From Agrococcus sp. ARC_14 (lineage in GTDB: Bacteria; Actinomycetota; Actinomycetes; Actinomycetales; Microbacteriaceae), in assembly GCF_022436485.1 (NCBI RefSeq), contig NZ_JAKUDO010000001.1:930001-994000 (forward strand): a stretch of DNA of 64,000 nt, in the 5' to 3' direction. Positions 5,389 through 15,401 of the stretch are shown here, piece by piece. The number at the start of each line of letters is the position of its first letter. Positions within the stretch are counted from its first letter, which is position 1. The position numbers and the translations under genes were made by a program. A model generated the notes under the pieces. The model was given only the letters and a program-made list of their open reading frames with translations, was not told the origin of the DNA and did not search any database.

Positions 5389-7539
5389 ATGACCTCGACG
5401 AGCACGCCCCCGACTCGCTCACGCGCCACCACCTGGCTGCGCGTCCTCATCCCCGCCATGCTGCTGATCGCCTGGCTCGCGGTGATGGCCCTCGGCGGCC
5501 CGCTCTTCGGGCGCATCTCCGAGGTCTCCACGAACGAGCAGACGAGCTTCCTGCCCGCCACCGCCGAGTCGACGCAGGTGCAGGAGCAGCTGGGCGGCTT
5601 CCTCGGCGACGACGAGACGCCCGCGATCGTGGTCGCGGCCGCCGACAGCGCGCTCACCGCCGACCAGACCGCCGCGATCGAGTCGCTCGGCGCCGATCTC
5701 GCCGAGCTCGACGGCGTGCTGCAGGTCTCGCCCGCGATCCCGAGCGACGACGGACGCGCGATCCAGCTCCTGGCGCTCGTGGACGCATCCGACTCCGCAC
5801 CGGAGGTCGGCGACACCGTCGAGGTGCTGCGCGCCGCGATCGCGGACGCCGGCATCGACGGCGTCGACATCGCCGTCACCGGCCCCGCGGGCTTCAGCGC
5901 CGACATCGTCGAGGCGTTCAGCGGCATCGACGGAATCCTGCTGCTGGTGGCGCTCGCCGCGGTCTTCGTCATCCTGATCGTCGTCTACCGCTCGCCGCTG
6001 CTGCCGGTGCTGGTGCTGGGCACCTCGGTGGCGGCGCTGAGCGCGGCCATCCTGGTGGTCTTCTCGCTCGCGCAGGCCGAGGTGCTGACCCTGAGCGGCC
6101 AGACCCAGGGCATCCTCTTCATCCTGGTCGTGGGTGCAGCGACCGACTACGGCCTGCTCTACACCGCGCGCTTCCGCGAGGCGCTCGGCGAGACCCGCAG
6201 CGCCTGGCAGGCCACGAAGCTGGCGATGCGCGGCGCCTTCGAGCCGATCGTCGCCTCGGGCGGCACGGTCATCGCCGGTCTGCTCTGCCTGCTGCTCAGC
6301 GACCTGGTCTCCAACCAGCAGCTGGGCCCGGTCGCGGCGATCGGCATCGTCGCCGCCATGGTCGCGGGACTCACCCTGCTGCCGGCGCTGCTGCTGGCGT
6401 TCGGCAAGACGGCGTTCTGGCCGTTCATGCCCACTCCCGAGAACCCGCGCCGCAAGGCCGAGGGCACGGGCGTCTGGGCGGCGATCGCCGGCCTCGTCGG
6501 CCGACGCGCCCGGGTCGTCTGGATCGTCACCGCGCTGGTGCTGGGCATCGGCGCCGTCGGCCTCACGCAGCTGCGCGCCGAGGGCGTGCCCGCGAGCGAC
6601 TTCGTGGTGGGGGAGTCCGAGGCGCGCGACGGCCAGGCGCTGCTGAGCGATCATTTCCCCGGCGGGTCCGGCACGCCCGCCTACGTCGTCGTAGACGAAG
6701 CCGGGACGGATGCGATGGCCGACGCCGTCGCGCAGGTCACGGGCGTCGACGCGGTCGCCGTCACCAGCGACGATTCGCCCTCCGGCACCATCCCGCATCC
6801 GGCACCCGAGGGCGGCCCGCTCGCCGAGGCATCCGCCACCATCGTGGACGGCTCGGTGCTGCTGCAGGCGACGCTCACGGATGCGCCCGACTCCGACCCG
6901 GCGCAGGCGACCGTGCGCGAGCTGCGCGAGACGGTGCACGCGGTCGACGCCGATGCGCTCGTCGGCGGGCGCACCGCCGCAGCCATCGACACGAACGATG
7001 CCTCGACGCATGACCGCACGCTCATCATCCCGATCGTGCTCGCCGTGATCGCGCTCATCCTCATGCTGCTGCTGCGCTCGATCGTGGCCGCGCTGCTGCT
7101 GCTCGTGACGACCGTGCTCTCGTATGCGACCGCGCTCGGCGTCGGCGCGTGGATCCTGGAGGCGATGGGGATCCCGGACATGGACCCATCGGTGCCGCTG
7201 TTCGCCTTCGTCTTCCTGGTCGCGCTGGGCGTCGACTACAACATCTTCCTCATGACGCGCGTGCGCGAGGAGGTCGCCAGGCACGGCCACCGCGAGGGCG
7301 TGCTGCGCGGTCTGCGCGTGACGGGCGGGGTGATCACCTCTGCCGGCGTCGTGCTCGCGGCGACCTTCGCGGCCCTGGGCGTGATCCCGGTGCTGTTCCT
7401 GCTGCAGATCGCGATCATCGTGGCGCTCGGCGTGCTCATCGACACGACGCTCGTGCGGTCGCTGCTCGTGCCGGCGCTCGCGCTCGAGCTGGGGCCGAAG
7501 ACGTGGTGGCCGTCGAAGCTGGCGCGCGAGAGGCGCTGA
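5389..7539 (+). CDS. MMPL/RND-family membrane exporter
   Basis: A 716-residue inner-membrane transporter built from two similar halves. Each half has one transmembrane helix, a large extracytoplasmic domain and five more helices (first half helices from about residue 180, second from about 545). Conserved Asp-Tyr pairs that carry the proton relay in MMPL proteins occur in both halves: ATDYGLLYTAR (near 253) and GVDYNIFLMTR (near 614). Relatives are actinorhodin-cluster ActII-3, Bacillus YdfJ and mycobacterial MmpL. Cargo could be a lipid or drug-like molecule. No MarR/TetR gene lies next to it, which is unusual for drug-responsive members. Confidence 0.88.
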   Translation: MTSTSTPPTRSRATTWLRVLIPAMLLIAWLAVMALGGPLFGRISEVSTNEQTSFLPATAESTQVQEQLGGFLGDDETPAIVVAAADSALTADQTAAIESLGADLAELDGVLQVSPAIPSDDGRAIQLLALVDASDSAPEVGDTVEVLRAAIADAGIDGVDIAVTGPAGFSADIVEAFSGIDGILLLVALAAVFVILIVVYRSPLLPVLVLGTSVAALSAAILVVFSLAQAEVLTLSGQTQGILFILVVGAATDYGLLYTARFREALGETRSAWQATKLAMRGAFEPIVASGGTVIAGLLCLLLSDLVSNQQLGPVAAIGIVAAMVAGLTLLPALLLAFGKTAFWPFMPTPENPRRKAEGTGVWAAIAGLVGRRARVVWIVTALVLGIGAVGLTQLRAEGVPASDFVVGESEARDGQALLSDHFPGGSGTPAYVVVDEAGTDAMADAVAQVTGVDAVAVTSDDSPSGTIPHPAPEGGPLAEASATIVDGSVLLQATLTDAPDSDPAQATVRELRETVHAVDADALVGGRTAAAIDTNDASTHDRTLIIPIVLAVIALILMLLLRSIVAALLLLVTTVLSYATALGVGAWILEAMGIPDMDPSVPLFAFVFLVALGVDYNIFLMTRVREEVARHGHREGVLRGLRVTGGVITSAGVVLAATFAALGVIPVLFLLQIAIIVALGVLIDTTLVRSLLVPALALELGPKTWWPSKLARERR

Positions 7540-7603: not shown

Positions 7604-7620
7604 CGTATTACCGTAATACG
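7604..7620. promoter_or_regulatory. Perfect 17-bp palindromic operator of the GntR regulator
   Basis: CGTATTACCGTAATACG is a perfect dyad: 8-bp arms CGTATTAC/GTAATACG around one central C. It lies 26 bases upstream of the GntR start codon and overlaps any reasonable -10 (TATTAC 7606-7611 or TAATAC 7614-7619). FadR/FCD-type GntR proteins bind short palindromes of this form, often autoregulating. It is AT-rich against a GC-rich background. Confidence 0.75.
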
Positions 7621-7646
7621 GTCATACCGACAAGGAGGTCGTCATC

Positions 7647-8312
7647 ATGTTGGAACGACGTGCAGCCCCGTTGCGAGAGCAGGCCGTGGAGGAGATCCGC
7701 GCCTGGATCGTGCGCGGTGAGCTCGAGCCCGGATCGCGGATCACCGAGAAAGTGATCGAGCAGCGGCTCGGCGTCAGTCGCACGGTCGTCCGCGAAGCGC
7801 TCCGCCAGCTCGAGAGCGAGCGGCTCATCCGCATCCAACCTGGTGCCGGTCCCGTCGTCGCCGAGCTCACGCAGGACGAGGCGCGGCAACTCTATGAAGT
7901 GCGCGCCGCGCTTGAGGCAACGGCCGCCAGGCTCGCCGCCCGACACGGCGACGAACACCGGATCCGCGCGGTCGAGGCAGCCTTCGCCCAGATCGGCGAG
8001 CAACCTCCGACCACGCTCGAGGAACTGCTGGCGATCAAGAACGACTTCTACGCTGCTCTCATCGAGGCGAGCCGCAACCACATCATCGGCGAGCAGCTCG
8101 CCAACGTGCAGGCACGCATCAGCCAGCTCCGCGCGGTGACGCTCTCTGCGCCCGATCGCCATCAGGCGATGCGCGCCGAGCTCGGCGCAGTGGTCGACGC
8201 CATCGTGCGTGGCGACGGGGATGCCGCCTACGAACTCTCCGTGGCCCACGTGATGGCGGCATCCGCCATTGCACTCGACCACCTCAACGACCGCACGGAC
8301 GCGCTGATCTGA
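7647..8312 (+). CDS. GntR-family transcriptional regulator, FCD (FadR) subfamily
   Basis: A 221-residue DNA-binding regulator. The N-terminal winged helix covers about residues 8-70 (LREQAVEEIRAWIVRGEL, then EKVIEQRLGVSRTVVREAL). An all-helical FCD ligand domain follows (YEVRAALEATAARLAARH, about residues 85-205), which in this family binds metal and small organic acids. ATG 7647 is preceded by a strong SD, AAGGAGG at 7632-7638. It is the first gene of the catabolic island and probably controls it through the palindrome at 7604-7620. Inducer unknown. Confidence 0.9.
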   Translation: MLERRAAPLREQAVEEIRAWIVRGELEPGSRITEKVIEQRLGVSRTVVREALRQLESERLIRIQPGAGPVVAELTQDEARQLYEVRAALEATAARLAARHGDEHRIRAVEAAFAQIGEQPPTTLEELLAIKNDFYAALIEASRNHIIGEQLANVQARISQLRAVTLSAPDRHQAMRAELGAVVDAIVRGDGDAAYELSVAHVMAASAIALDHLNDRTDALI

Positions 8313-8373
8313 GTGCGCTTGCTGCTGGCGGTTCAGCGCACACGAACATCACTACGGACGAAGGGCAGGCACG

Positions 8374-8793
8374 ATGACAGGCATCGACCCGCAGGAGTAC
8401 ATCGACGAAATGGCACGCAAGCGCGGCTATGTGCTCGACTATCACAAGGTCATGGCCAAGCAGGATTTCCCCGTGCTGCAGGCGGCGAACCACTTGGTCT
8501 CCGCCGCTTACCTCGACCAGCGCACGCTCGACCGCAAGACGAAGGAGCTCATCTTCATCGTCTCGCTCACCGTCATGCGCGCCTCGAAGGGCCACATCCA
8601 GTCGCACATCCGCGTCGCCCTTGACCTCGGGCTGACGCCGACCGAGATTCTCGAGGCGATCGAGATCTCGCTGCCCGAGGCCGGCATCGTCGCCTTCCAG
8701 TCCGGCTTCGAGGCCTGGCGCGAGGTCGTCGGTGCCGACGGCATCGAACCGACTGTCGCTGTGCACGAGGGCGGCTCCGGCGCCGGACAGTAG
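8374..8793 (+). CDS. Carboxymuconolactone decarboxylase (CMD)-family protein, Cys-less
   Basis: A 139-residue all-helical CMD/AhpD-fold protein. The core LDRKTKELIFIVSLTVMRAS...GHIQSHIRVALDLGLTPTEILEAIEI is diagnostic. The CxxC pair that gives AhpD-like members peroxidase activity is missing: the equivalent position reads RASKGH and the whole protein has no Cys. The His (GHIQSH) is kept. That makes it more like PcaC-type decarboxylases or isomerase-like members than a peroxidase. It lies between the GntR gene and the hydrolase gene in one direction. The substrate is inferred only from context. Confidence 0.8.
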   Translation: MTGIDPQEYIDEMARKRGYVLDYHKVMAKQDFPVLQAANHLVSAAYLDQRTLDRKTKELIFIVSLTVMRASKGHIQSHIRVALDLGLTPTEILEAIEISLPEAGIVAFQSGFEAWREVVGADGIEPTVAVHEGGSGAGQ

Positions 8794-8825
8794 CGGCGCA
8801 GGCAGGGCCGTCGATCGGCCAAGCA

Positions 8826-8875
8826 GTTCCGCCCCCGGTGCTGCAACACCGAGGGCGGAACAGGGCCTCGGCCCT
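8826..8875 (+). terminator. Double hairpin inside the catabolic island (attenuator or processing site)
   Basis: GTTCCGCCC (8826-8834) pairs with GGGCGGAAC (8853-8861), with an inner stem GGTG/CACC (8837-8840/8847-8850). Immediately after, AGGGCC (8862-8867) pairs with GGCCCT (8870-8875). No T-run follows. It stands between the CMD gene and the hydrolase gene, so it may lower downstream expression or mark an RNA-processing point. Confidence 0.6.
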
Positions 8876-8908
8876 AGGCGGGAGCAACACAGAGAGGTGA
8901 CACTTCCC

Positions 8909-10162
8909 ATGACCAGTATCAATGCAATTGGAGCTTCGGCGGTGCAGCCCGTCCCCCTGACCGAGGCGGCGCGTGATCGACTGCTCGCTGACCCGCGGTT
9001 GAGTGAACTCTCCCGGGGCGCGAACGTCGCCTTCGAGCTCGCAGCACCTGCTGGAGCGACGGTCGTCGCTGTCCGTGCGGGTCAGGTCGGCTTCAAAGGA
9101 GAGCCGACGTTCGGCGTCCGCGCTGCATCCGACGTCTGGGCACGGCTGCTTGCTTCCGAGCCGAAGGCCGGTGATCAGAACGTTCATGCGCTGGCCCTGG
9201 CGGGTGAGGTCGAGCTGTGGGGCGACTCGCTGACGATTGCGCAACACCTTCATCTGCTCCACAGAGTCTTGGAGATCGCCCGGTCGTCGTATCCCTCGGT
9301 GCAGGCTGACGCGTTCGCACACCGTCCTCTTGGGTTCCGTGGCGAGTATGTCCGGGTCGACGTGCCCAACCTCGGGCTCTGCGACATCTACGTGGAACGC
9401 GCCGGCGCGGGAACGCCACTGCTCTGCCTGCCGACCGCGGGCAGCGACACGAAGCAGTACCACGGGCTGATCACTGAGACCGACCTCACCGACCGATACG
9501 AGGTCATCGCCTTCGACCTGCCGTGGCACGGGAAATCCAATCCTGCATGGGGCCGTCGATCCAGCTCCTACCGGCTCGACTCCGCCGCGTACGTGGGCGC
9601 GATCGTGGCAGTGACTCGAGCGCTCGCACTATCGAAACCGCCGGTACTGCTCGGAGTCTCGATGGCCGGTGCTGCGGTCGTGGAGGCGATCGCGAACCAT
9701 CCCGATCTGTTCGCCGGCGCGGTCGCTTGCCAGGCTGGCCCACGAGTCGCCGGACGCCGCACGGAGTGGCTGCGGAACGCAGCGATCAACCAAGCGCTGC
9801 ACATCCCGGAATGGACCGGCGTGCTGATGGCACCGCAGTCGCCGGCCGAGATGCGCGATCGAGTGTGGTGGGGCTACTCGCAGGGCGGATTCGGTGCCTA
9901 CGACGCCGATATCGGCTACTACTCCGAGAGCTGGGACGTAGACAACGTGTCCGCGCTACTCGATCAGCGCAGTCCCCTGATCGTGGTGCTCTCTGGTGCA
10001 TACGACACGAGCGTTCCCACCGCAGCGAGCCGAGAACTCGCCGAGACCATCCCGAATTCTAAGTTCCGCACCATGCCGGAACTCGGCCACTTCCCGCACG
10101 CGGAGAACCCGGCCGTGTTCGTCGAGCACCTCGAATGGGCGCTCCACAAGATCCTCGACTGA
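8909..10162 (+). CDS. Alpha/beta hydrolase with an extra N-terminal domain
   Basis: A 417-residue protein. The C-terminal ~280 residues are an alpha/beta hydrolase: oxyanion region LPTAGSDTKQYHG, core FDLPWHGKSNPA, nucleophile elbow GVSMAGAA (Ser near 250), Asp in SGAYDTSVP (near 367) and His in ELGHFPHAENP (near 395). The first ~115 residues are not hydrolase; the pattern with GQVGFKGEPTFGVRA and LAGEVELWGDSLTIAQHLHLL resembles an SCP2-like lipid/ligand-binding fold, which is my inference. ATG 8909 was chosen because AGAGAGGTGA precedes it; the frame is open further upstream but crosses the hairpins. Possibly a lactone or ester hydrolase (compare PcaD). Confidence 0.78.
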   Translation: MTSINAIGASAVQPVPLTEAARDRLLADPRLSELSRGANVAFELAAPAGATVVAVRAGQVGFKGEPTFGVRAASDVWARLLASEPKAGDQNVHALALAGEVELWGDSLTIAQHLHLLHRVLEIARSSYPSVQADAFAHRPLGFRGEYVRVDVPNLGLCDIYVERAGAGTPLLCLPTAGSDTKQYHGLITETDLTDRYEVIAFDLPWHGKSNPAWGRRSSSYRLDSAAYVGAIVAVTRALALSKPPVLLGVSMAGAAVVEAIANHPDLFAGAVACQAGPRVAGRRTEWLRNAAINQALHIPEWTGVLMAPQSPAEMRDRVWWGYSQGGFGAYDADIGYYSESWDVDNVSALLDQRSPLIVVLSGAYDTSVPTAASRELAETIPNSKFRTMPELGHFPHAENPAVFVEHLEWALHKILD

Positions 10163-10215
10163 TCGGATCGCGGCCGCGGCCGAACCCACACCATGCACAC
10201 CAGAGAAGGAGCACC

Positions 10216-10737
10216 ATGCCTATCCGTTCAGGCACTCGTCGTCACCGGATCGCCATCATCGACGGGCCTAACATGACCAACCTCGGCGCGCGCAACAAGC
10301 GCGTCTACGGGGCCATCAGTTCGATCGAGGATCTGCAGCAGTACTCGAAGAACTTCGGCGCAGAGCTCGGTGTGGAGATCGACACGTTCGTCTCCAACTT
10401 CGAGGGCGAGATCCTCGAGTACATCCATGCCGCCGCGAACCGCGTCGACGCGTTCATCATCAACCCCGCGGGGCTGACGGAGATCGGAATCCCAACGAAG
10501 CATGCGCTGAGTGAAACGGGACGGCCGGTAATCGAAGTGCACTTCGCGAACGTCGTCGCTCCTCCCACTGCGCCGCGTGGTCTGCCGATTGGCCCATGGG
10601 AGTCGGTCTTCACACCGAGTGTGACCGGCACCACGATGGGGCTGCGTCAGTACAGCTACGCGCAAGCCATCCTCGGACTGACGCTCGCGCTCGATGACAG
10701 CACCTTCCTGGGGGCAGACGTGGAGCAGAGGGCATGA
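10216..10737 (+). CDS. Divergent type II 3-dehydroquinate dehydratase-like protein
   Basis: A 173-residue protein of the AroQ (type II dehydroquinase) fold. Recognisable landmarks are IAIIDGPNMTNLGARNKRVYG (Arg and Tyr of the active-site lid), VSNFEGEILEYIH and VIEVHFAN (catalytic His). The normally invariant NPGAYTH motif is replaced by NPAGLTE, so one active-site His becomes Glu and a Tyr becomes Leu. It is therefore unlikely to be the housekeeping shikimate enzyme and may dehydrate a related hydroaromatic acid. ATG 10216 follows GAAGGAG. Its end overlaps the next SDR start by 4 bases (ATGA). Confidence 0.8.
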   Translation: MPIRSGTRRHRIAIIDGPNMTNLGARNKRVYGAISSIEDLQQYSKNFGAELGVEIDTFVSNFEGEILEYIHAAANRVDAFIINPAGLTEIGIPTKHALSETGRPVIEVHFANVVAPPTAPRGLPIGPWESVFTPSVTGTTMGLRQYSYAQAILGLTLALDDSTFLGADVEQRA

Positions 10738-11489
10738 GCGGCTTCGCCGGTCGTCGAATCCTCATCACAGGAGGGTCCTCGGGCGTCGGTCGCGCTTGTG
10801 TCGAGCACTTCCTCGACCTCGGTGCCCATGTCGGCAATCTGGACCTCGTCCCGACCACTGACCACGGCGCATCGCTGCACGCGCAGGCGATCGCTGACGT
10901 CAGGGACACGGCGGCGGTGCAAGGGGCAGTCACCTCGATCGCTGAGGACCTCGGTGGGCTCGACGTCGTGGTCAACAACGCGGGAGTGAGCTTCATCGGT
11001 GGGGTCGAGGATGGCGATGCAGACGACTGGGCGCGCATCCTCGACGTGAATCTCGGAGGGTACGTGCGGACGATCCGCGCCGCGCTTCCGCATCTGCGAC
11101 GGTCTGCCGCGGCATCCATCGTCAACGTCTCGTCGACGACCGCGACTTCAGGCTTCCGGCGTCGCGCGCTGTACTCGGCATCGAAGGGCGCGATTGAAGC
11201 GATGACTCGATCGATCGCCGCAGACCTCCTCGCCGAATCGATCACGGTGAACGCTGTGAACCCGGGCACGGTGGACACCCCGTTCATGGACGAACTCGCT
11301 GCTCGGAGCGCGGATCCCGCTGCCACCCGAGCCGCGTTCGACAATCGGCAGCCAACCGGCCGGATGGTCCGACCTGAAGAGGTGGCCCGAGCCGTCGCGT
11401 ACTGCGCTGACCCCATCAACCGCTCGCTGGTGGGCAGCACCGTCGTCGTCGATGGCGGGATCCTCGCCTGCCACATCACCGAAGCCTGA
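10734..11489 (+). CDS. SDR-family oxidoreductase (first of two)
   Basis: A 251-residue classical short-chain dehydrogenase. It has the cofactor motif TGGSSGVG (about residues 10-17), NNAG (about 81-84), the catalytic Ser in NVSSTTA and the Y-x-x-x-K pair in YSASKGA (about 143-149), and the PGTVDTPF segment. The quaternary/C-terminal VDGG motif is present. The Asp after strand beta2 (NLDLVP) suggests NAD rather than NADP. It overlaps the dehydroquinase-like gene by 4 bases, so the two are co-translated and likely act in one pathway, for example oxidising a ring hydroxyl. Confidence 0.88.
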   Translation: MSGFAGRRILITGGSSGVGRACVEHFLDLGAHVGNLDLVPTTDHGASLHAQAIADVRDTAAVQGAVTSIAEDLGGLDVVVNNAGVSFIGGVEDGDADDWARILDVNLGGYVRTIRAALPHLRRSAAASIVNVSSTTATSGFRRRALYSASKGAIEAMTRSIAADLLAESITVNAVNPGTVDTPFMDELAARSADPAATRAAFDNRQPTGRMVRPEEVARAVAYCADPINRSLVGSTVVVDGGILACHITEA

Positions 11490-11527
11490 CACCAGACACC
11501 TCCATTCCAGGAAAGCGAAGGATCACG

Positions 11528-12283
11528 ATGCGACTCAAGGGAAAGACGGCCATCATCACGGGGGCCGCACAGGGGATCGGACGACAGATCGCGGCTCGAT
11601 TTGCCGCAGAAGGCTCGAACGTTGTCGTTGCCGACCAGAACGGGGAGCTGGCGGAGCGGAGTGCGCGAGAGATCAAAGCTGCTGGGGGCCGCGCCGCGGC
11701 GATCACCGTCGACGTCGCTGACGCGGCCTCGGTGCAGGCACTTGCCGCTGGCACGATCGAAGTCTTCGGGGGTATCGATGTCCTCGTGAACAATGCGGCG
11801 ATCTTCTCGTCGCTGACGATGCGACCGTTCGAGGAGATCAGCCCTGAGGAGTGGGACACGCTGTTCGCGGTAAACGCAAAGGGAGTCTTCCTTGCGTGCC
11901 AGGCCGTCAGTCCGGCCATGCGCGCCAACGGCGCGGGCAGCATCATCAACATCTCCTCCAGCGTGGTCGTCACGGGGCGCCCCAACTATGCGCACTACAT
12001 CGCTTCGAAGGGAGCGGTCTGGGCGCTGACGCACGCTCTGGCGACTGAGCTCGGCAGCGACAACGTCCGGGTCAACTGCATCAGCCCGCATGGCATCGTC
12101 ACCGAAGTGCCTCGGGCGACGATCTCGGAAGACGGCTGGCGGCAGAACCTCGCCGAGCAGGCGCTGAAGCGCAAGGGCGCTCCTGACGATCTGCTCGGGG
12201 CGTTCGTCTTCCTCGCCAGTGATGAGAGCGCCTATATGACCGGCCAGACGCTCTCGCTAGACGCGGGTCTCCGCTTCACCTGA
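11528..12283 (+). CDS. SDR-family oxidoreductase (second of two)
   Basis: A 251-residue classical SDR. It has TGAAQGIG (about residues 12-19), NNAAIFSS, ISSSVVVTGRPNYAHYIASKGA with catalytic Ser, Tyr and Lys, and ISPHGIVTEV near the substrate loop. The VVADQNGE strand again favours NAD. An SD-like GAAAGCGAAGGA precedes ATG 11528. It resembles the first SDR only at family level, so this is not a recent duplication; two successive oxidations or opposite-face reductions are possible. Followed 48 bases later by the transporter. Confidence 0.88.
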   Translation: MRLKGKTAIITGAAQGIGRQIAARFAAEGSNVVVADQNGELAERSAREIKAAGGRAAAITVDVADAASVQALAAGTIEVFGGIDVLVNNAAIFSSLTMRPFEEISPEEWDTLFAVNAKGVFLACQAVSPAMRANGAGSIINISSSVVVTGRPNYAHYIASKGAVWALTHALATELGSDNVRVNCISPHGIVTEVPRATISEDGWRQNLAEQALKRKGAPDDLLGAFVFLASDESAYMTGQTLSLDAGLRFT

Positions 12284-12331
12284 GCCCGAGCCGACCACTC
12301 AAGAAACGGAACACGACGAAAGGAACTACGA

Positions 12332-13711
12332 GTGCAGCCGAAAACTCTGTCGACGAAGGAGTCGACGCGACGGCGCGTGGTGCGCAAGGTTAGCGTCCGC
12401 CTGATGCCGATCATCTTCCTGCTCTACCTGGTCAATTACATCGACCGGACCGCGCTGGGAATCGCCAATGTCAACGGAATGTCCGAGGAACTATCGCTGA
12501 CCGCGACGATGTTCGGCTTGGCATCCGGCATCTTCTTTGTCGGATACATCCTGCTCGAGGTTCCGAGTGCCGTCATCGCTCAGCGGCTGGGCGCTCGTCG
12601 TTGGATCGCCAGAATCGCTATCAGCTGGGGGGTGGTGGCGTCACTGACTGCCTTCGTCCCGAACTTCGAGTGGCTGGTCGGCGCACGATTCCTTTTGGGC
12701 GTCGCAGAGGCGGGATTCGCTCCGACCGTGCTTCTCTATCTCACGATCTGGTACTCGAACCGCGAACGCCCGAAGGCATTCTCGATCTACCTGCTCGGCA
12801 TTCCACTCTCGTCTGTTGTGGCAGGGCCGCTCGCCACGTGGCTCACGCAGGTCGGTGACGGCGTCTTCGGCCTCGAGGGCTGGCGTTTCATGACGCTTGC
12901 GTCCGGCGTCCCAGCAGTGCTGCTCGGAGTGGTCGTCTTGTTCGTCCTCGTCGATCGTCCGGAGCAGGCGCGCTGGCTGTCCCAAGAAGAGCAGGCTGTG
13001 CTCGAGGACGACATCGCGGAGTCCTCGACCGCGGATTCCGACAACCACCGGGGCGGCATGCTCTCTTCAATGCGTTCGGGGAAGACCTGGGTGCTCGGTG
13101 TCGCGTACTTCGGCGTCGTCTACGGGCTGTATGGCATCGGCTTCTTCCTGCCGAGCGTCATCGCCGGCTTCGAGGCGGCCAACGGTGAGCCGCTTGCGCC
13201 CCTGCAGCAGGGGCTGCTGATCGCCGTGCCGTACGCGTTCGCTGCGATCGCTCTGATCCTGTGGCCACGAGACGCGGCGCGGAGGAACGAGTTGGGATGG
13301 CACACGCTCATCTCGACCGGGGTCGGCGCAACCGGAATTCTGATCGCCGCGTTCGCGCAGCATCCGGTTTTGATCATGGTCGGCGTGACGCTGTGCGCTA
13401 CCGGCGTGATCTCCAGCATGCCGCTGGTGTACAGCCTCAGCGCTCGCCTGCTGCCGGCCATCGCCGTTGGCGCCGGTCTCGCGCTGGTCAACACCATCGG
13501 CAACGTCGGCGGATTCGCAGGGCCATTCATCACGGGTTGGCTGTCGGATCTCTTCGGCAACACCCAGATCGCGTTCGTCGTTCTCGCCGGGATCCTGGTC
13601 TCGGCTGGCGTCATCTCGGTCATCGTCCAGCGCACCTCCAAGGTCGGAGTGCCGAACGGTGATGAGTTCGCCGACACGGCTTCAGCACCGGACGCAGTCG
13701 AGCAGCGGTAG
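12332..13711 (+). CDS. MFS transporter, anion:cation symporter (ACS)-like
   Basis: A 459-residue, 12-helix major facilitator. The N-terminus RLMPIIFLLYLVNYIDRTALGIA is the typical start of ACS-family organic-anion symporters (tartrate, glucarate, phthalate type). The loop 2-3 motif appears as AQRLGARRWIAR, and the central loop carries DRPEQARWLSQEEQ, also characteristic of ACS members. The start is GTG 12332 after GAAAGGAACT. As last gene of the island it most likely imports the acid that the enzymes degrade. Substrate not predictable from sequence. Confidence 0.87.
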   Translation: MQPKTLSTKESTRRRVVRKVSVRLMPIIFLLYLVNYIDRTALGIANVNGMSEELSLTATMFGLASGIFFVGYILLEVPSAVIAQRLGARRWIARIAISWGVVASLTAFVPNFEWLVGARFLLGVAEAGFAPTVLLYLTIWYSNRERPKAFSIYLLGIPLSSVVAGPLATWLTQVGDGVFGLEGWRFMTLASGVPAVLLGVVVLFVLVDRPEQARWLSQEEQAVLEDDIAESSTADSDNHRGGMLSSMRSGKTWVLGVAYFGVVYGLYGIGFFLPSVIAGFEAANGEPLAPLQQGLLIAVPYAFAAIALILWPRDAARRNELGWHTLISTGVGATGILIAAFAQHPVLIMVGVTLCATGVISSMPLVYSLSARLLPAIAVGAGLALVNTIGNVGGFAGPFITGWLSDLFGNTQIAFVVLAGILVSAGVISVIVQRTSKVGVPNGDEFADTASAPDAVEQR

Positions 13712-13739
13712 AGGAAGAAGTCCATCTCGAGCGGAACGC

Positions 13740-13779
13740 GCTGGGAAGGGCAGCCATGCAAGGCGCTGCTGTTCCCAGC
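13740..13779 (+). terminator. Hairpin at the end of the catabolic island
   Basis: GCTGGGAA (13740-13747) pairs with TTCCCAGC (13772-13779), with an inner CAGC/GCTG pairing (13751-13754/13765-13768). It lies 29 bases after the MFS stop. No T-tract. The remaining gap to gabD (to 13931) holds a small dyad TTGTT-GAG-AACAA at 13847-13859 of unknown meaning and an AAGGAG SD before the next start. Confidence 0.5.
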
Positions 13780-13931
13780 CGTGGGCTGCGCCACACTCGT
13801 CGGTCCTAGATCCGCATACACGCTCGCTCACCCGACGAACTACGGTTTGTTGAGAACAACGCAACAGCATCCGCCCGGCCGCACGGGTAATTCGTATGCG
13901 ATTGTGATCAATCCAGAGTAAGGAGTCCACT

Positions 13932-15401
13932 ATGAGCGCGACCACCGAGACCCAGGTGCTCGACGGCGTCCACGGCCAGCTGTTCATCGGCGGCGAATGG
14001 ATCGACGGCGAGCAGGGCACGATCGACGTGCGCGACCCGGCGACGGGCGACGTCATCAAGCAGATCGCTGACGGATCGGTCGCCGACGGTGTGCGCGCGC
14101 TCGACGCCGCGGTCGCTGCGCAGGAGGCGTGGGGCCGCACCCCGGCGCGCGTGCGCGGCGAGATCCTGCGCAAGGCCTTCGATCTGCTGCAGGAGCGCAA
14201 GGAGGAGTTCGCGCTGCTCATGACGCTCGAGATGGGCAAGCCGCTCGCCGAGGCGCGCGGGGAGGTCGCCTACGGCGGCGAGTTCCTGCGCTGGTTCGCC
14301 GAGGAGGCCGTGCGCATCGACGGCCGCTACACGATGACGCCCGAGGGCACCGGCCAGATGATCGTCACGCACCGACCGGTCGGCCCGTGCTTCCTCATCA
14401 CGCCCTGGAACTTCCCGCTCGCGATGGCGACCCGCAAGCTCGGGCCCGCGCTCGCCGCCGGCTGCACGGCAGTCGTCAAGCCCGCGACCCTGACCCCGCT
14501 CACGACGCTCGCGCTGGTCGCGCTGCTCGAGGAGGCCGGGCTGCCCAAGGGCGTCGTCAACGTCATCACGACGAAGTCCACCGGTGCGCTCTCCGAGAAG
14601 CTGCTCGCCGACCCGCGGCTGCGCAAGGTCTCGTTCACGGGCTCGACGCCGGTGGGCGTGCAGCTGCTGAAGCAGGCGGCGGAGAACGTGCTGAAGGCGT
14701 CGATGGAGCTCGGCGGCAACGCCCCCTTCGTCGTCTTCGAGGATGCAGACCTCGACAAGGCCGTCGAGGGCGCGCTGCTGGCGAAGTTCCGCAACATCGG
14801 CCAGGCATGCACGGCGGCCAACCGCTTCATCGTGCACGAGTCGATCGCGGATGAGTTCGCGACGCGCGTCGGGGATGCGGTCAAGGCCATGAAGATCGGC
14901 CGCGGCACCGAGGAGGGCGTCACGATCGGCCCGCTCGTCGAGGACAAGGCCGTGGCCAATGCGGTGCGGCTGGTCGAGTCGGCCGTCGCCGCCGGCGCCA
15001 CGCTCGTCACCGGTGGCAAGGCGATCGAGGGCGCCGGCTCGTTCTTCGAGCCGACGGTGCTCGACGGCGTCAACGCGACGATGGCGGTCTCGATCGAGGA
15101 GATCTTCGGGCCGGTCGTCGCGATCCAGCGCTTCCGCAGCGAGGAGGAGGCCGTGCGGCTCGCGAACGCGACCGAGTACGGCCTGGTCGGCTATGTCTTC
15201 ACCGAGGACACCAAGCGCGGGCAGCGCATGATCGAGCTGATCGACACCGGCATGATGGGCCTCAACGTGGGCGTGGTCTCCAACGCGGCCGGCCCCTTCG
15301 GCGGCGTGAAGCAGTCGGGCCTGGGCCGCGAGGGCGGCGCCGAGGGCATCCACGAGTACCTCGAGACGAAGTACACGCTGATGCCGAACCCGTTCGCCTA
15401 A
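13932..15401 (+). CDS. gabD: NAD(P)-dependent succinate-semialdehyde dehydrogenase family protein
   Basis: A 489-residue aldehyde dehydrogenase. It has TPWNFPLAMATRKLGPALAAGC, the cofactor segment VVKPATLTP, FTGSTPVG, the general-base Glu in MELGGNAPF (about residue 260) and the catalytic Cys in GQACTAANR (about 294). Best match by eye is the GabD/GabD2 group that oxidises succinate semialdehyde to succinate; other semialdehydes remain possible. ATG 13932 follows AAGGAGTCCACT. It has its own upstream region and the base composition of the host, so I do not count it in the neighbouring island. Confidence 0.87.
   Translation: MSATTETQVLDGVHGQLFIGGEWIDGEQGTIDVRDPATGDVIKQIADGSVADGVRALDAAVAAQEAWGRTPARVRGEILRKAFDLLQERKEEFALLMTLEMGKPLAEARGEVAYGGEFLRWFAEEAVRIDGRYTMTPEGTGQMIVTHRPVGPCFLITPWNFPLAMATRKLGPALAAGCTAVVKPATLTPLTTLALVALLEEAGLPKGVVNVITTKSTGALSEKLLADPRLRKVSFTGSTPVGVQLLKQAAENVLKASMELGGNAPFVVFEDADLDKAVEGALLAKFRNIGQACTAANRFIVHESIADEFATRVGDAVKAMKIGRGTEEGVTIGPLVEDKAVANAVRLVESAVAAGATLVTGGKAIEGAGSFFEPTVLDGVNATMAVSIEEIFGPVVAIQRFRSEEEAVRLANATEYGLVGYVFTEDTKRGQRMIELIDTGMMGLNVGVVSNAAGPFGGVKQSGLGREGGAEGIHEYLETKYTLMPNPFA

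Follow-up and report, generated by a model that had tools for sequence, protein, structure and literature searches.

The 64,000-nucleotide stretch of the Agrococcus sp. ARC_14 genome analysed here (the window) carries, at positions 7604 to 13779, seven co-directional open reading frames (ORFs) on the + strand that encode a GntR/FCD regulator, a CMD protein, an alpha/beta hydrolase, a protein resembling type II dehydroquinase (DHQ-like), two short-chain dehydrogenases (SDR1 and SDR2) and a transporter of the major facilitator superfamily (MFS), the whole being flanked by an MMPL gene (5389–7539) and an aldehyde dehydrogenase (ALDH) gene (13932–15401). These genes probably form a substrate-inducible operon for the catabolism of an organic acid, governed by its own GntR/FCD regulator at a GTNNTAC operator, and assembled as a mosaic in a polymorphic slot of the chromosome. 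Each of the proteins falls in a known superfamily, and the operon is a new version of a GntR-controlled catabolic operon that includes an uncharacterised DHQ-like subfamily. In the literature, searched through titles and abstract openings, with most subscription papers outside reach, nothing was found on this combination of genes. An earlier reading of the same DNA (the original prediction) had placed the seven genes, behind a regulator and a perfect palindrome, exactly where they lie, although it overlooked the ALDH gene, the operator family and the N-terminal domain of the hydrolase.

The operon and its predicted operator

The genes follow one another at intergenic gaps of 38 to 115 bases, with an overlap of 4 bases between the DHQ-like gene and SDR1. 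The first encodes the regulator (7647–8312, 221 amino acids, aa), which exceeds the cut-offs of both its Pfam domains (PF00392, 64.4 bits against 27; PF07729, 79.2 against 24.3), and it is followed by the genes of the CMD protein (8374–8793, 139 aa), the hydrolase (8909–10162, 417 aa), the DHQ-like protein (10216–10737, 173 aa), SDR1 and SDR2 (10734–11489 and 11528–12283, 251 aa each) and the MFS transporter (12332–13711, 459 aa).

The palindrome in front of the regulator, CGTATTACCGTAATACG (7604–7620), has two arms of 8 bases around a spacer of 1 base, and is part of a 25-base element of the + strand, CGTATTACCGTAATACGGTCATACC (7604–7628), made up of three GTNNTAC units with a period of 8 bases, which ends 18 bases 5′ of the GntR start codon and which is predicted, from motif searches, to be the GntR operator of the operon. 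Within the 3.27-Mb host genome the pattern SGTNNTACSGTNNTAC is found at a single place, that of the operon, in three overlapping registers, and the reversed control pattern has one match. When related loci (L numbers) are considered, 12 of the 20 that bear the operon or a variant of it contain two or more exact GTNNTAC units, at 17 distinct places in all (24 strand hits within 399 kb), while none occurs in 153 kb from nine loci of the genus without the operon, in 510 kb from 32 other DHQ-like loci, or in 2.0 Mb of a Markov control, which is a first-order resampling and not an exact shuffle; the 20 loci are not independent, as several belong to a single genus, and there seems to be hardly any difference between L062 and L063. 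One of the 17 places (L005, 19716) is distant from the operon. The motif recurs at related operons of other Actinobacteria and of Pseudomonas, where, in L009 and L010, three-unit operators lie about 50 bases 5′ of the DHQ-like gene. Loci with the variant operon described below carry a second site, at the MHS gene in L062, L069 and L071 and beyond the ALDH gene in L063 and L065, and thus both parts appear to be under a single regulator.

The operon also differs from its surroundings in composition, since the lowest GC values of all 64 1-kb bins are those of the six bins from 8001 to 14000 (0.629–0.662), and GC at third codon positions (GC3) is 0.77–0.83 in six of the operon genes and 0.90 in the CMD gene, as against 0.957 in the flanking MMPL gene and 0.965 in the ALDH gene, a profile that agrees with the earlier impression of coding sequence less GC-biased than its neighbours. 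Among 42 background ORFs, picked mechanically, 5 to 6 have a lower GC3 than each of the six genes, and 14 a lower one than the CMD gene. The low-GC stretch ends, as had been predicted, with a hairpin 3′ of the MFS gene (13736–13782, + strand), which folds at −30.9 kcal/mol (z −2.36, equalled by 3 of 200 shuffles), though no T tract follows it and it is absent from the terminator-scan output.

A polymorphic chromosomal slot

The MMPL gene is present in 23 of the 24 genomes of the genus, and 16 of these regions were compared. In eight the slot behind it is empty, with MMPL adjacent to ALDH, and in five it holds a variant operon; in L067 about 10 kb of other genes shift the point at which the variant starts, and in L074 and L075 there are about 3 kb of other DNA. 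The five variant loci (L062, L063, L065, L069 and L071) have GntR, CMD, hydrolase and ALDH genes in the slot, with the same spacing, whose products are respectively 81–86%, 93–95%, 54–57% and 92–95% identical to those of the window, and HIBADH and lactonase genes replace the DHQ-SDR-SDR-MFS block. The gap genes were annotated in three of these five loci, HIBADH-like in L062, L069 and L071 and lactonase-like in L062 and L071, the position in L069 being ambiguous. Reading by eye, and similarity to proteins of the Glaciibacter locus L005, gave the names HIBADH, lactonase, MHS, LysR and nitrilase. Some of the L005 proteins were searched: of two relatives of the variant proteins, L005:13449-14273 matches PF00753 at 75.7 bits, and L005:3150-4061 reaches 56.6 bits with the AidB lactonase model, below its cut-off of 360. 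Outside the genus (L082–L084), the neighbours of the variant include a LysR gene, a nitrilase-like gene and an MHS-type transporter, but no adjoining ALDH; its lactonase was called in L082 and L083, with an ambiguous position in L084. At L062:4432-6787, too, a nitrilase-like gene and an MHS-type transporter, recognised by eye, adjoin the variant operon. As to the DHQ version, a genome of the genus (G313) has SDR1 at 91% identity about 3.2 kb after the MMPL gene, as in L008, a locus from an Agrococcus metagenome-assembled genome (MAG) that shows the full gene order and may be the same genome as G313.

The trees of the regulator and of the hydrolase disagree. In the former, the genus clade includes both the window and L008, which are placed among the regulators of variant operons (99/99 with eight rows, 99/95 with six), whereas in the latter they form a pair (100/100) outside the eight variant hydrolases (100/99), to which the pair is weakly sister (81/80); the CMD tree lacks resolution. 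This conflict points to different histories, and so to a mosaic operon in which, as read from the trees, the DHQ-SDR-SDR-MFS block and its own hydrolase sit under a regulator of the genus lineage. Moreover, four variant genes of L062 have a host-like GC3 (0.94–0.97), in contrast to 0.77–0.90 for the DHQ version in the window and L008, which fits a later arrival of the latter, perhaps by way of a lower-GC congener. The DHQ version was probably imported. The horizontal acquisition supposed in the original prediction is favoured by the differences in GC and GC3, and by a strict search (1e-40) that, among 299 genomes of the family, detected the DHQ-like gene in the host alone; the idea of a simple inserted island, on the other hand, has to be given up, because relatives carry a variant operon in the same slot and the regulator belongs to the genus lineage.

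The downstream ALDH (+ strand, 489 aa) is probably part of the functional unit, as its last enzyme, given its place in the variant operon, where it directly follows the hydrolase gene in five genus genomes, and in Glaciibacter L005, where a gene 80% identical to it directly follows the DHQ-like gene. The two best of 44 families for this protein are of the succinate-semialdehyde dehydrogenase (SSADH) type, both with scores below their cut-offs (TIGR01780, 566.7 against 646.35; NF008415, 522 against 828), and it is therefore called SSADH-like only.

The dehydroquinase-like protein and the proposed pathway

Textbooks present type II dehydroquinase as an enzyme of a single reaction, and it is a target of drug design. 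The DHQ-like protein belongs to its fold family (PF01220, 102.9 bits, gathering cut-off 23.3), but stays below the cut-offs of all five NCBIfam dehydroquinase models, TIGR01088 (AroQ) and NF003804–NF003807 (98.9 against 169.85, 97.1 against 146, 93.9 against 130, 79.7 against 171 and 73.7 against 195). Its residues N19, R26, Y31, N83 and H109 are invariant in 24 DHQ-like sequences and are matched in the separate canonical AroQ that the host genome encodes; we take them to be the catalytic Asn12, Arg19, Tyr24, Asn75 and His101 of Mycobacterium tuberculosis AroQ, whose numbering is also used below for AroQ positions. The differences from AroQ concern the positions that are presumably contacts to the dehydroquinate ring: His81 is replaced by Glu or a variable residue, Asp88 by the invariant His96, Ser103 by Ala111 in most sequences, and the region of Arg112 by an insertion. 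Judged by its sequence, the protein is not an AroQ and is a member of an uncharacterised dehydroquinase subfamily, and it is proposed to act as a beta-hydroxy-carbonyl dehydratase. The protein database contains 385 relatives at E ≤ 0.001, which, where the sources name them, are called 3-dehydroquinate dehydratase or dehydroquinase.

The CMD protein matches PF02627 (39.7 bits, cut-off 23) and no NCBIfam model at 1e-3. AhpD proteins of this family have peroxidatic cysteines in a CxxC motif, a feature absent from the window protein, since it contains no cysteine (the homologues in L004 and L006 have one each); His78 is invariant in 11 aligned rows, eight close homologues are 68–94% identical, and a role as beta-oxo-acid decarboxylase is proposed. 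The hydrolase consists of an N-terminal domain of about 125 residues, without a Pfam match, and an alpha/beta hydrolase domain whose triad Ser251-Asp366-His394 is invariant in 30 sequences. A fold search with residues 143–417 puts enol-lactonase at the top, tied with esterases, and lactonases among the neighbours, although the score with PcaD (TIGR02427) is 48.3 against a cut-off of 255.85. From its order of helices and strands the N-terminal domain may be SCP2-like, and it was likely joined to the hydrolase in Actinobacteria by gene fusion. The hydrolase is found in 7 of 299 family genomes including the host (1e-70), and in the phylum-wide sample in the host only (1 of 396, 1e-60). A stand-alone homologue of the N-terminal domain, with no Pfam match at 0.01, adjoins the hydrolase gene in Pseudomonas (L009:11238-11630).

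Three features, read by eye, are shared by SDR1 and SDR2, namely TGxxxGxG, YxxxK and an Asp that follows the second strand, and a preference for NAD is predicted for both, as is usual for such members of the family. The best structure match of SDR2 is 8cxa (364 bits), deposited as a 3-oxoacyl-ACP reductase, and the protein passes the generic subfamily model NF005559 'glucose 1-dehydrogenase' (240.2 against 215). The nearest models of the MFS protein, proposed as an organic-acid importer, are D-galactonate and 4-hydroxyphenylacetate permeases (TIGR00893, 251.4 bits; HpaX, 239.1 bits), both with scores below cut-off. Among the NCBIfam matches listed no equivalog cut-off is reached, in keeping with the expectation that these proteins belong to no well-characterised family with an assigned pathway.

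Reasoning from protein families throughout, the pathway may comprise the following steps: (i) the MFS protein would import the acid anion; (ii) SDR1 and SDR2 would oxidise ring or lactol hydroxyls with NAD+; (iii) the DHQ-like enzyme, with Tyr31/Arg26 as base, His109 as acid, and Asn19 and Asn83, would remove water from a beta-hydroxy carbonyl other than 3-dehydroquinate; (iv) the PcaD-like hydrolase would open the resulting enol-lactone or dione; (v) the CMD protein would decarboxylate a beta-oxo acid; (vi) and finally, the SSADH-type dehydrogenase would oxidise the aldehyde to a dicarboxylate entering the tricarboxylic acid cycle. The hydroaromatic substrate first suggested is no more than a candidate, for the changes at presumed contact positions of the DHQ-like protein, together with the lactonase and HIBADH genes of the variant, make a lactone-type acid at least as likely.

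If lactones are involved, the operon might instead serve the degradation of small lactones or signal molecules (butyrolactone, homoserine-lactone or furanone type), as clean-up or as feeding. The variant operon has MBL-fold lactonase-like and HIBADH-like proteins, lactonases are among the fold neighbours of the hydrolase, and the ALDH is nearest to the succinate-semialdehyde type, as in attKLM. Nevertheless, we regard this role as rather unlikely, as the window version is without the MBL lactonase, its importer is of an acid type, and two SDRs and a dehydratase-like protein are unneeded for simple butyrolactones.

Quinate or shikimate breakdown, with the DHQ-like protein as catabolic dehydroquinase and the SDRs in place of quinate dehydrogenase to give protocatechuate, would agree with the PF01220 fold and the kept catalytic residues, with the adjoining enol-lactonase-like hydrolase and CMD protein, and with an MFS protein of the organic-acid type. 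It is improbable, however, in view of the sub-threshold NCBIfam scores, the changed equivalents of H81, S103 and D88, the insertion at R112 and the low PcaD score; furthermore, the host has no PF00775 intradiol dioxygenase (protocatechuate 3,4-dioxygenase), a family that the same search, as a control, detects in 4 of 14 genomes, which makes a route through protocatechuate unlikely. From the lower beta-ketoadipate pathway (PcaC, PcaD) the operon is further set apart by the extra N-terminal domain of the hydrolase and by a CMD protein unmatched in NCBIfam. Far from the operon, the host encodes an extradiol-dioxygenase-like candidate of the LigB type (C1:25910-26668, PF02900, 104.8 bits), the sole match to that family in the host.

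The end of the vitamin B6 pathway resembles the operon in a weak hydrolase match (3kxp, E 1.4e-4), in an SSADH-type ALDH and in the score of SDR2 with pyridoxal 4-dehydrogenase (238.8, cut-off 325), but no pyridine-ring oxygenase is among the seven genes of the window, and DHQ-like genes are not known to belong to that pathway. The B6, nicotinate, ascorbate, apionate and terpenoid pathways were considered less likely and dropped, for want of marker genes. A detoxification or biosynthesis operon is very improbable, for although SDRs, CMD proteins and hydrolases occur in biosynthetic clusters as well, the MFS protein is of the importer type, a dedicated FCD regulator has a single genomic site, and the distant version of the system is coupled to TRAP-type importers (by eye), a CoA-transferase and a thiolase, which argues for uptake and breakdown.

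Relatives of the operon in other genomes

A collection of 84,980 species genomes yielded 41 DHQ-like loci, a set limited by the two search patterns used, in which gene calls were mechanical. The expected co-occurrence is seen in that both SDRs lie near the DHQ-like gene at 16 of these loci; at least one SDR does so at 23 and neither at 18, while GntR and hydrolase genes are nearby at nine each, and CMD at seven. The SDR1-SDR2-DHQ neighbourhoods span Actinomycetota and Pseudomonadota, and two architectures are prominent. Type A, seen in the window, L008 and L007, in L006 (which lacks SDR1) and in partial form elsewhere, has GntR, CMD, the fused hydrolase and MFS. In Type B, of which Granulosicoccus L022, Alcaligenes L030 and Leucobacter L021 are examples, SDR1-SDR2-DHQ is accompanied by IclR, a class III CoA-transferase and a BbsB-like thiolase; there is usually also an OB-fold partner, with one or two PcaD-like hydrolases, and a TRAP importer is frequent, the TRAP and IclR assignments being made by eye. 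Clustering of 45 sequences gave 20 with the thiolase, 19 with the OB-fold protein and 25 in the CoA-transferase cluster, which gathers other CoA-transferases too; a type-B hydrolase has no PDB sequence match at 1e-8. The two types are tied together by Nesterenkonia L026, where GntR, CMD and hydrolase lie side by side with the Type B set.

Type B recalls the benzylsuccinate (Bbs) beta-oxidation of anaerobic toluene degradation, as L022 combines a BbsB-like thiolase (356.7 bits) and an OB-fold protein of BbsA/ChsH2 type with a class III CoA-transferase, and the window SDR2 matches, among other structures, BbsD (7pcs). However, both L022 Bbs scores are well below the curated cut-offs (750 and 250), and the window operon itself is without CoA genes. 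SDR1/SDR2/DHQ genes and PcaD-like hydrolases are not known as components of bbs.

An SSADH-like ALDH, HIBADH and CMD in the variant and a BbsAB-like thiolase in Type B together suggest a more far-reaching scheme, which we put forward very tentatively: a plug-in system in which a single slot, with a single operator code, would receive interchangeable upper modules that converge on a common node of the 2-formyl- or 2-acylsuccinate type, with a neofunctionalised DHQ-like enzyme. The upper module would be SDR1-SDR2-DHQ-like in the host and nitrilase-lactonase-HIBADH in relatives. In the first, the DHQ-like enzyme would eliminate water from HO-C(COOH)-CH2-C(=O) in a lactone such as 2-hydroxyparaconate, and not from quinate. 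The CMD protein would then decarboxylate the node beta-oxo acid to a semialdehyde, to be oxidised by the SSADH-like enzyme to succinate, whereas in other phyla the CoA-transferase and BbsAB-like thiolase would cleave the node to an acyl-CoA and succinyl-CoA.

Returning to the organic-acid catabolic operon as the preferred reading, several observations weigh against it. The operators of L004, L008, L011, L082 and L084 are degenerate, with 3–4 mismatches to the 17-mer, and none matches in L006, L026 and L085. At the thresholds used, 18 of the 41 loci have neither SDR (six of them on contigs of less than 8 kb), which suggests that the DHQ-like subfamily probably serves more than one pathway, and five further genomes of the genus encode SDR1-like proteins of 49–52% identity at a distance from any DHQ-like gene (1e-40, in a search not covering all five). 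The Agrococcus MAG copy (L008) is also low in GC, and descent from a congener of lower GC may account for some of the effect. As for the ALDH gene, it lies behind the hairpin, without an operator site of its own, its GC3 is host-like and it is present in empty-slot genomes too; position, composition and distribution together allow that it may be a housekeeping neighbour.

The DHQ-like subfamily is in catabolic company in most of the neighbourhoods examined, and if the proposals above are true, a widespread subfamily with retained elimination residues and altered presumed contacts would show the dehydroquinase fold recruited for other eliminations. The polymorphism of the slot offers a clean natural experiment on the way in which catabolic operons exchange upper modules and keep regulator, operator and lower enzymes.

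The plasmid collection gave four DHQ-like hits at 42–43% identity, and three of these regions were inspected. Two of the three, L046:7524-8462 and L047:4125-5019, on plasmids of Mesorhizobium and Shinella, each have a tandem pair of DHQ-like genes that adjoins genes of the xanthine-dehydrogenase family (molybdenum hydroxylases) and SSADH, with CMD in L047; they were judged to put the fold to a sister catabolic use and not to be instances of the window operon. The Pseudomonas locus L009 (15122-19003) carries, downstream of its DHQ-like operon, a class III CoA-transferase, a glyoxalase-family protein, a protein that exceeds the subfamily cut-off for HMG-CoA lyase (342.7 against 246 bits) and, by eye, a hydroxyacid dehydrogenase. 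A protein adjoins the Type B cluster in two Rhodobacteraceae (L012:13510-14913 and L013:13532-14935), its L012 copy matching the apiosidase-like PF13204 at 265 bits. Finally, Candidatus Agrococcus pullicola (L024, L036) has a Type B fragment consisting of DHQ, hydrolase, OB-fold and thiolase genes, while another partial DHQ-like gene shares its contig with the end of an MMPL gene.

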